The notes under the pieces are model-generated. The model was not told where the DNA came from, searched no databases, and worked only from the letters and a program-made list of their open reading frames with translations. From assembly GCA_947311255.1 (NCBI GenBank), contig CAMZKL010000040.1, positions 95,135-159,134 of the forward strand: DNA of 64,000 bases, written 5' to 3'. Below are positions 59,718-62,776 of the stretch, piece after piece. The position numbers and the translations under genes are program-made. Position 1 is the stretch's first letter, and every line of letters begins with the position of its first letter. The stretch comes from an uncultured Chlorobiota bacterium (GTDB lineage Bacteria > Bacteroidota > Bacteroidia > Bacteroidales > JAADGE01).

Positions 59718-61520
59718 TTACTTAACTTTTGATAAATTATATGAAATTACAATTCCTAACAAAACGGAACCAACAATAAAAGAAAAACCAATTAAATATT
59801 CAGCAAAAATGAGTTTGCCTATACCAAATAATGTAAGCATAACCATTAAACTTCCTGCAAACCAATTAAAAAACAACCTTCCATATCCTGTATCACTTTT
59901 TACATCAGGTAATTTTTTAGAAATACGTCGCCAACCATAGCCGCCGGGATGCACTTTTTTGTAAAAAGATTTTAATTTATCTTCTTTCTCAGATTTGGTA
60001 AGAAATGTAACTGAAATCCAAACTATTGATGACCAAATTACAATTAAAATTAAACTTAACTCAAAATCTTTTTTAAGTACATCTAATCCAAAAACATAAG
60101 TTAAAACCGGATAAATAGTATAAGGTGCAATCATTGCTGAAATTTCAGACCAAGCATTAATTCGCCACCAAAACCATCTTAATAATAATACTAAACCAAT
60201 ACCTCCGCTCATTGCAAGAACAAATTTCCAAGCATCACTAATTCTGTCAAACTGAGTTGTTATAATTATTGAAAAAATCATCAATATAAAAGTTGTAATT
60301 CTTGATACTTTTACATATTTACTTTCATCTGCATTTTTATTAATAAAAGGTTTATAAAGGTCATTTACAATATATGAAGTTCCCCAAACTGTTTGCGATG
60401 CAATTGTTGACATATAAGCTGCAAGAAAAGCTGCAAAAAGCAAACCTAATAATCCTGCAGGCAATAAATCTCTAATTAACATAACATAAGTTGAGCCTTT
60501 ATCTGCAACATCTGGGTATAAAATTAAAGCAGCAAAAGCAGCAATAATCCAGGGCCAAGGTCTTAGAGCATAATGAGCAATTTGAAACCATAGAGTTGCC
60601 AATACAGAATGTTTCTCATTTTTTGCAGACATCATTCTTTGTGCAATGTAACCTCCACCGCCGGGTTCTGCACCTGGATACCAACTAGACCACCATTGAA
60701 CGCCCAAATACGCAATTAATGCTGTAACTGTCATTTTTAAAATCCCTGATGTTCCATTGCTTACATCATTTCCTGATTTTAAATCAGGAAAAAAATCAAA
60801 ACTCCATTCCGGTAATTTCTCTTTTAAACCGGCAATTCCACCAACATCTATATGGTTAACTGCAAAAACAGCAAGAATAATACTTCCTGTCATTGCTATT
60901 ACAAATTGAAAACTATCAGTTAAAGAAACACCCCACAAACCGGACAATGCAGAATATGCAGTAGTAAATAACATTAATCCTGCAACTGCAACAAGATGCG
61001 AACTAAATTCAATTCCAATAAAAGAAAATTCTTGTGAACCGAATATACTAAATTCCGGAAATAAAACTTTTAAAATTTTTACCATTGCAAGATTTACCCA
61101 TGCAATTACTATTGTGTTCATAAAAATTCCAATATAAACAGCTCTAAATCCTCTTAGAAAATTTGCAGGTCTTCCTGAATATCTTAAATCTACAAATTCA
61201 GCATCTGTAAGAATACCGGAACGCCTCCAAAGTCTTGCAAAGAAAAAAACCGTAAGCATTCCGCCAAAAAGCATATTCCACCAAAGCCAATTTCCTGCAA
61301 TACCGTTTTGTGCAACAAGTTCGGTAACCGCAAGAGGTGTATCTGCTGCAAAAGTTGTTGCAACCATACTTGTTCCCGCAATATACCAAGGCAACTTCCT
61401 CCCACTTAAAAAGAAATCATCCATTCCTTTGCCTGCTCGTTTAGACATATACAAACCTATGCCAATACTTACAAAAAAATAAACTCCAATAATTAACCAA
61501 TCAATAAAAACTAAATTCAT
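59718..61520 (-). CDS. Sodium:solute symporter family protein
   Basis: FFLSGRKLPWYIAGTSMVATTFAADTPLAVTELV; SALSGLWGVSLTDSFQFVIAMTGS; AAFLAAYMSTIASQTVWGTSYIVNDLY. Confidence 0.92.
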   Translation of the reverse strand: MNLVFIDWLIIGVYFFVSIGIGLYMSKRAGKGMDDFFLSGRKLPWYIAGTSMVATTFAADTPLAVTELVAQNGIAGNWLWWNMLFGGMLTVFFFARLWRRSGILTDAEFVDLRYSGRPANFLRGFRAVYIGIFMNTIVIAWVNLAMVKILKVLFPEFSIFGSQEFSFIGIEFSSHLVAVAGLMLFTTAYSALSGLWGVSLTDSFQFVIAMTGSIILAVFAVNHIDVGGIAGLKEKLPEWSFDFFPDLKSGNDVSNGTSGILKMTVTALIAYLGVQWWSSWYPGAEPGGGGYIAQRMMSAKNEKHSVLATLWFQIAHYALRPWPWIIAAFAALILYPDVADKGSTYVMLIRDLLPAGLLGLLFAAFLAAYMSTIASQTVWGTSYIVNDLYKPFINKNADESKYVKVSRITTFILMIFSIIITTQFDRISDAWKFVLAMSGGIGLVLLLRWFWWRINAWSEISAMIAPYTIYPVLTYVFGLDVLKKDFELSLILIVIWSSIVWISVTFLTKSEKEDKLKSFYKKVHPGGYGWRRISKKLPDVKSDTGYGRLFFNWFAGSLMVMLTLFGIGKLIFAEYLIGFSFIVGSVLLGIVISYNLSKVK

Positions 61521-61579
61521 TTAACTTTATTTTAAATATTTAACAAACATAACAATTTTCATTTTAATTTATGATAAAT

Positions 61580-61890
61580 CAATGTCGTTTAGTTAAGAAT
61601 ATTGTTTAAATGTTTATATATCAATATTATAATTGCAAAAAGCATTTAAATGTTTTATTTTTTCAGCACAAACGGTGTGATTATCAGTAGCCTTGCCGTA
61701 TAAGGCAAGGAAATAATAATAAAAACTTGCACCAGGCACCAACGGTGCAGTATCATTGTTGTTTCGCACCATTGGTGCAAAAAAAAAAAATAATTCTATC
61801 ATTATAAAAATAACAAGCTTAAATTATAGAAAAATTTTATTTGCTGAATATTAATAAGTTAAAGTAAATTCTTATCTAAACGACATTGTT
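61580..61890. mobile_element. Non-autonomous MITE-like element with 21-bp TIRs
   Basis: CAATGTCGTTTAGTTAAGAAT (61580-61600) vs reverse complement of ATTCTTATCTAAACGACATTG (61868-61888), 20/21; TGATAAAT at 61572-61579 and 61891-61898; internal palindromes at 61667, 61691, 61736 and 61766. Confidence 0.75.
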
Positions 61891-62035
61891 TGATAAATTA
61901 TAAAATCTAAAAAATAAAAAAATATAATAAACTAACAGATAATTAATTATATTTATTGATGTTTACAGACTTATTAACAATAATAAAAATATTCTTGGCA
62001 TACGAATTGAAACATATAAAATAAATCAAACAAAA

Positions 62036-62047: not shown

Positions 62048-62776
62048 ATGAAAAACTTAATTATTACAATCATTATTTTAGGAGCAATTATTTTTGTCCC
62101 AAAATATTCAGAAGCCCAAAGACACTACAGATCAGATAATACTTCTGAATTAAAATTAAGAATGTATGACAACGCAATCTACGAAGTTATTTTTGACAGA
62201 AAAATTTATAAAGTTTCAAATTCTTTTTTCAGAATTTCAAATGTAAGATCTGGTAACCACCGAATTATTGTAAAAGAAATATACGGCAGATATGGAAACC
62301 AAAGAATAATTTACAGAGGGAATATAAACATTAGTCCTCGTTCAATAATTACTGCTAGAATAAATAGATATAACAATCTTATTATTACAAGAGTTAGTCC
62401 TATTTACAATGATGAATATGATGATTATGAAGATAATTATTACAGAAAACCACTTTTAGATATAGCAAGATTAAAGAACTCATTAAGAAGAGCAAATTTT
62501 GAAAGTGATAAAAAAAGAATTGCAAGACAAGCAATCTCAACTCACAGAGTTCGTGCAAATCAAGTATATCAAATTTTGATGATGTTCAGTTTTGAATCTA
62601 CAAAACTAAAAATTGCAAAATTCTCATACAGATATTGTATTGACAAAAGAAATTATTACAGAGTAAATGATGCTTTCACATTCAGTAGCAGCATAAGAGA
62701 ATTAGACAATTACATAGGAAGTTATCGTTCGGAATATTATGATGACGACTGGGAATATTACAGACCAAGATATTAA
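62048..62776 (+). CDS. Exported DUF4476-domain protein
   Basis: Signal peptide; SLRRANFESDKKRIARQAISTHRVRANQVYQILMMFSFESTKLKIAKFSYRYCIDKRNYYRVNDAFTFSSSIRELDNYI. Confidence 0.85.
   Translation: MKNLIITIIILGAIIFVPKYSEAQRHYRSDNTSELKLRMYDNAIYEVIFDRKIYKVSNSFFRISNVRSGNHRIIVKEIYGRYGNQRIIYRGNINISPRSIITARINRYNNLIITRVSPIYNDEYDDYEDNYYRKPLLDIARLKNSLRRANFESDKKRIARQAISTHRVRANQVYQILMMFSFESTKLKIAKFSYRYCIDKRNYYRVNDAFTFSSSIRELDNYIGSYRSEYYDDDWEYYRPRY

Follow-up and report, generated by a model that had tools for sequence, protein, structure and literature searches.

A short segment bounded by inverted repeats lies between the divergent genes for a symporter (59718–61520, Pfam SSF) and a DUF4476 protein (62048–62776, Pfam PF14771) in the window, i.e., the whole 64-kb stretch of DNA analyzed here. 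An earlier note, made from the sequence alone, took the segment for a MITE-like element. This raises the questions of whether the segment is a transposable element and where its interior comes from. We show below that it is a MITE: its ends are recognizable, its 10-bp target is duplicated, the corresponding site of a close relative is empty, and an intact IS with the same ends occurs in the genus. We further conclude that it is very probably a hybrid MITE, in which an IS4-type DDE-transposase shell encloses a Y1/REP-like hairpin core.

The element is 309 bp long (61580–61888), and the region 61570–61898 reads TATGATAAAT - CAATGTCGTTTAGTTAAGAAT ... ATTCTTATCTAAACGACATTG - TTTGATAAAT (Table 1). 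The 21-bp terminal inverted repeats (TIRs) with 20 matching positions described in the earlier note are present, the right one (61868–61888) being CAATGTCGTTTAGATAAGAAT when inverted, and so is the weaker complementarity further inside, which gives 61-nt arms at 72%. Its length of 311 bp, with an end at 61890, has to be corrected because the conserved IS4-type end is CAATG, which places the boundary at 61888. The proposed 8-bp target duplication is also ruled out by the empty site described below and by related elements: the duplicated stretch comprises 10 bp, one of them mismatched, since the empty site holds a single TATGATAAAT and perfect 10-bp repeats flank many same-ended elements. The right copy acquired its one change later. 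Based on the local base composition, 0.013 such TIR pairs are expected by chance in the 64-kb window, and about 2e-6 when the flanking 10-bp repeat is included. No protein-coding gene or transposase was found within 61580–61888, in agreement with the note, the longest ORF being a mechanical one of 62 aa, and the element has no Rfam match. The predicted folding of the single strand is far stronger than that of shuffled sequences (z = −6.4 for RNA and z = −5.2 for DNA).

Table 1. Features of the element and its immediate flanks, in window coordinates
Feature	Coordinates	Strand	Remarks
Left target-site duplication TATGATAAAT	61570–61579		10-bp direct repeat, 9/10 versus right copy; single copy at G018 empty site
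Left terminal inverted repeat CAATGTCGTTTAGTTAAGAAT	61580–61600	+	20/21 inverted match to 61868–61888
AT-rich left arm	61601–61660		Common to truncated copy G000:C13:1503–1607
Y1-associated hairpin (REP-like) module, hairpins A, B and C	61666–61748	+	nhmmer profile match
Hairpin A GCACAAACGGTGTG	61666–61679	+	Module alignment A1; relatives GCACCAAAGGTGCG
Hairpin B, CCTTGCC-loop-GGCAAGG	61691–61710		7-bp stem
Hairpin C GCACCAACGGTGC	61736–61748		GCACCNNNGGTGC in G000 confined to window element
Hairpin D, inverted orientation, TTCGCACCATTGGTGC	61763–61778	−	Layout match in relatives
Right terminal inverted repeat	61868–61888	−	20/21 match to left TIR
Right target-site duplication TTTGATAAAT	61889–61898		One mismatch versus left copy

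The boundaries are fixed, together with the 10-bp duplication, by a precise empty site in a congener (G018). The DUF4476 protein of this genome is 95% identical to that of the window, and upstream of its gene stands CATTTTAATTTATGATAAATTATAAAAT, in which both window flanks are joined and the 10-mer occurs once. The left flank agrees with that of the window at 279/280 positions, and the right flank is 93% identical. The insertion of the MITE in the window was recent. As a separate observation, the 280 bp to the left of the insertion (61300–61579 compared with locus L168) are 99.6% identical to G018, set against the 93% of the right flank; this is perhaps a recent recombination tract that ends near the insertion.

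The home genome (G000) is a draft assembly of 2.8 Mb in 75 contigs, and the search of it located TIR sites at the window element, C13:1504 and C71:1778. It holds one full and one truncated copy of the MITE, others being possibly lost from the draft. The truncated copy (C13) starts at the left TIR, matches the window element along 106 bp with 92% identity and is broken past hairpin A. The third site (C71) is a decayed IS, consisting of a TIR with 1 mismatch in 18 and adjoining IS4 transposase fragments that are 69–81% identical to the transposase of another congener, G011. This remnant is the only IS4 partner in the home genome, where no intact one was found. The G011 genome (contig C1) possesses a full IS of 1498 bp with the same ends as the MITE (CAATGTCGTTTAGTTA) and the duplication ATACTTGAAT on both sides (10/10). 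A related IS of 1451 bp, which also has the left-TIR end of the window element, occurs in another genome of the collection (L119); no matching 10-bp flanks were seen around it. The two transposases are 55.5% identical. That of L119 scored 161 bits against NCBIfam NF033592 (IS4; cut-off, 115) and also matched Pfam DDE_Tnp_1, while that of G011 reads YHFRWNEEEAYKLLK, which fits Y(2)R(3)E(6)K. A lone copy in conserved synteny with no related IS, the contrary case named in the earlier note, is excluded. All the checks that the note had listed gave a positive result, with a second (truncated) copy in the genome, a full-length IS with the same TIRs in a congener and a precise empty site in a relative; many related elements with differing target duplications were also found.

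The IS4 subgroup is characterized by ends of the form -AATR--------WTW, a length of 1400–1650 bp and direct repeats of 10–13 bp (De Palmenaer et al. 2008, PMC2266710, Table 1). Both window TIRs fit this end pattern, their sole mismatch (T/A) falling on a W position, and the direct repeat is 10 bp; the transposases of the 1451- and 1498-bp ISs exhibit the DDE and YREK motifs of the subgroup. Judged from these signatures, the parent of the MITE is assignable to the IS4 subgroup of the IS4 family, and we infer that an IS of this subgroup mobilized the MITE in trans. The interior of the MITE and the IS have nothing clear in common beyond the TIRs, and we reject the view of the interior as a remnant of IS deletion.

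What, then, is the interior? The short palindromes that the earlier note saw clustered there are indeed present; they are not mere decoration, as they form a module related to hairpins that flank Y1 transposase genes. An nhmmer profile built from three modules beside Y1 genes (G005, G015 and G016) had a single significant match in the window, at 61666–61748 (E = 2.1e-9), and no match on the reversed window; with a profile of 8 module copies, the core was found at E = 7.1e-12. The core is laid out as GCACC-N3-GGTGC, a variable 7-bp hairpin, a further GCACC-N3-GGTGC and an inverted copy, and the aligned modules run from hairpin A through a linker with an invariant ATCA to hairpins B and C. The order A-B-C recurs in G005, G010 and G020, and the complete layout with the inverted D in G010:C52 and G020:C110. 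In 8 of the 9 aligned copies, all 7 pairs of hairpin B are kept, the ninth having one mismatch, while its sequence varies with two-sided changes at several positions. The module itself stands beside Y1 genes at G005:C17, G015:C276 and G016:C611. At these same sites, GCACCNNNGGTGC, which has 28 copies in G005, adjoins the Y1 genes, and it flanks the Y1 gene at G006:C15 on both sides. Taken together, we infer with good support that the hairpins of the window core belong to a module of Y1 type. In the home genome itself, the Y1 gene (C67) is flanked by other hairpins, AGTGCGTTTNAACGCACT, which rules out these as the source of the core; because of this difference, the cognate enzyme of the core was not found in the home genome.

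The proteins encoded beside the modules have about 150 aa with DH[IV]H, WQ and Y---Q--HH motifs, and the Y1 genes relevant to the core carry the signatures YILNQEEHH, YISEQENHH and YIMQQEKHH. They scored above the cut-off of NCBIfam NF033573 (IS200/IS605), and REP_Tyr_transpos stayed under its cut-off; the idea that they are RAYTs was dropped because of this NCBIfam assignment to IS200/IS605. Inspection of the module revealed no GT[AG]G foot. For these two reasons, i.e., the missing foot and the low REP_Tyr_transpos score, we do not file the module as a canonical REP, which would have such a foot and a class 2 TnpAREP, though it is REP-like in layout. The motifs correspond to TnpAY1 subclass 1.2, which occurs mainly in Cyanobacteria and Bacteroidetes, has about 148 aa with Y---Q--HH, and is listed without REPs (PMC6006769, Quentin et al. 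2018; Table 1). The subclass 1.2 signature was present in 59 of 62 distinct classifiable Y1 genes, 26 more loci being unclassified (assignment by motif only). Among 55 subclass 1.2-type Y1 genes (loci L191–L323; subclass again by motif only), 33 have inverted copies of a multi-hairpin repeat on both sides, compared with 1.75% of mismatched flank pairs. Hairpin density was 4.9/kb within 250 bp of Y1 genes versus 0.7/kb beyond, a difference confounded by that between intergenic and coding sequence. These patterns suggest that Y1 proteins of the subclass 1.2 type, which were thought to be repeat-less, do have DNA repeats.

We also examined how widely the ends of the window element occur. An exact 18-mer of the end was found at no fewer than 119 loci in a scan of the genome collection, and almost all matches listed bear Bacteroidota titles. 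In an even sample of the phylum, 6 of 396 genomes, the home genome included, carry the end with at most 1 mismatch, so that its distribution in Bacteroidota is patchy. TIR pairs with a spacing below 700 bp numbered 48, and in 33 of them (under 520 bp) the flanking 10-mers match at 8–10 of 10 positions; the preferred target resembles AWTNNWNAWT. These elements have their ends in common, and their interiors are mostly different. The interiors are rich in hairpins: 24 of the 33 elements with a target duplication of at least 8/10 had a folding z below −3, while only 7 of 64 stretches taken from the flanks did (Mann-Whitney p = 1.6e-11). The core of one five-copy element (L012, in G002) matches both flanks, in inverted arrangement, of a Y1_Tnp gene (G002:C30:3862–4206). 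For 31 cores, Y1 loci were fetched from the same genomes; at E < 0.001, 7 cores matched a Y1 flank from the genome to which they belong, and 0.56 such matches were expected from shuffled genome labels (p = 5e-5). The match of L081 to L277 is doubtful, as it concerns a copy that has TIRs around it and lies close to a Y1 gene; leaving it out gives 6 of 31 versus 0.47 expected (p = 5e-5). The other 24 of the 31 cores had no Y1-flank match in their own genome, and a Y1 origin is therefore shown for a minority. In L093, L152, L012 and L285, the first hairpin borders directly on the TIR or overlaps with it; the junction in L285 reads GGCTTTCAGCCTTAACTAAACG. A search for intact Y1 genes enclosed by IS4 ends on both sides yielded only half-bounded cases (L310 and L285).

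Several other IS4-type elements deserve mention in their own right. L074 and L099, both from one genome, share about 40 bp beside the left TIR and have different cores, and the CGTCATTGCGAG hairpin of L099 seems to be broken up by an array of Y1-type repeats. The core of L203 and L209 (G258) differs from the hairpin cores in that it contains GAACTAGTTAGTTAACC-like units in series.

The same core module was found inside other shells. In G005, it lies within CATAGCCGTCAAGCTAA ends on three contigs, C291, C28 and C375, with flanking 10-mers GGATTTAGGG/GGATTTAGGG, CCCCTAACCT/CACCTAACGC and CCCTTTAGGA/CCCTTTAGGG, respectively; such ends conform to the pattern of the IS231 subgroup, CAT-------AA--TAA. 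In G010, a 187-bp element (C52:92905–93091; L340:306–492) encloses the same hairpin core between TTCTACTTTACGAAGTTAAAA ends, which are perfect TIRs of 21 bp or longer (~22 bp) with the 4-bp repeat CTAA on both sides. That a single core occurs in three different shells is the best indication of recombination between cores and shells. With regard to the ends of the G010 element, similar solo ends were noticed in G011 and G016 loci, and a resemblance to the IS701 pattern at 6 of 7 fixed positions was also seen.

Given these data, we propose the following origin of the window element. The DDE/YREK transposase of an IS4-subgroup IS, now decayed in the home genome, would have bound the CAATGTCGTTTAGTTAAG ends in trans, excised the double-stranded element and attached it to a staggered target of 10 bp in the gap that separates the symporter and DUF4476 genes. 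The interior very probably stems not from IS deletion but from the module that flanks genes for IS200-like Y1 (HUH) single-strand transposases in related genomes. This core was probably either brought into a MITE by Y1-mediated insertion or taken up between a pair of IS4 ends, after which the IS4 transposase would have spread it, and it may also remain a substrate of a Y1 enzyme.

MITEs are usually regarded as deleted ISs. An ordinary IS4 MITE of this kind, in which the palindromes arose by local drift and resemble Y1 hairpins by convergence, would account for the wholly IS4-like TIRs and target duplication, and GC-rich palindromes are frequent in the intergenic DNA of bacteria. Nevertheless, we consider this very improbable and close to refuted, as the interior has no clear likeness to the IS, the Y1-adjacent profile spans 83 bp from end to end (E = 2e-9) with an empty reversed control, and the order of the three hairpins recurs in three other genomes. 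A more serious contender is nested insertion, in which a plain IS4 MITE was later entered by an IS200-like/REP unit that lost its gene, the core being carried along passively and contributing nothing to its spread. It is also one of the two routes of core entry in our preferred explanation, and we rate it as possible, if somewhat less likely than not. The five-copy element L012 holds the left and inverted right flanks of the G002 Y1 gene with the gene absent, as expected for a gene-less Y1 unit in a MITE, and L074 and L099 have their outer sequence, not their core, in common. A hairpin that abuts or overlaps the TIR, however, is unexpected for random entry into an existing interior. Capture between two IS4 ends is a possible route in view of the four elements in which TIR and first hairpin are fused and of the Y1 genes bounded on one side only.

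A structured RNA or regulatory cassette that is kept for its function at this locus, with only a superficial likeness to a transposon, would agree with the strong folding and the paired changes in hairpin B. As the primary explanation it is refuted because the closest relative has an empty site here, and the second copy elsewhere in the home genome, the lack of an Rfam match and the patchy spread (TIRs in 6 of 396 phylum genomes) likewise speak against it; we give it hardly any credence. Returning to the hybrid MITE, a wider proposal can be made tentatively, with slightly more doubt than confidence: in Bacteroidota, subclass 1.2 Y1 hairpin modules may have been repeatedly captured by unrelated DDE TIR shells (IS4, IS231 and 4-bp-duplication types), giving hybrid MITEs that would be spread on double-stranded DNA by one chemistry and copied or rearranged on single-stranded DNA by another. 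A highly conserved 18-bp IS4 end around many hairpin cores, together with one core in three shells, would mean that it is core capture, not internal deletion, that needs explaining. Such hybrids offer an additional route by which REP-like repeats could spread, and they suggest that a Y1 protein class believed to lack DNA repeats has them after all.

Mobile insertion cassettes of the MIC231 type consist of IS231 ends around a cargo of genes. These cassettes, which are named in PMC2266710, resemble the window element in their IS4-family ends, trans-mobilization and foreign interior; the cargo here, in contrast, is a hairpin array. The ISs of the IS4 subgroup (PMC2266710) are like the window element in their ends and 10-bp duplication, the partner ISs being 1451 and 1498 bp with a YREK-type DDE transposase, whereas the element has no transposase and an interior that is not IS-derived. 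The MITEs of Porphyromonas gingivalis (BrickBuilt, MITE239 and others), also from Bacteroidota, share IS-matching TIRs and a foreign or repetitive interior, but they are of IS5 type with short variable duplications, and the BrickBuilt core consists of 23-nt minisatellites (PMC4596501). REPtrons and REPINs with TnpAREP (PMC6006769) are similar in their multi-hairpin modules, inverted pairs beside a small HUH/Y1 gene and dispersed copies; they differ in that the Y1 genes here have the subclass 1.2 signature, which is listed without REPs, the modules sit within DDE-type TIRs and a GT[AG]G foot was not observed. An IS4 MITE as such is of a known kind. In the literature searched (open-access papers), we found nothing on the TIR sequence, the hybrid build or repeats at subclass 1.2-like Y1 genes.

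One further locus in the collection has IS4-type ends around genes. At L087:2373–3835, 1463 bp lie between such ends, the far end having 3 mismatches, and the 10-bp flanks match at 9 of 10 positions. The cargo is a pair of Gp49-like (HigB-type) and HTH_3 genes without a transposase, possibly a toxin-antitoxin cassette mobilized by IS4 ends.
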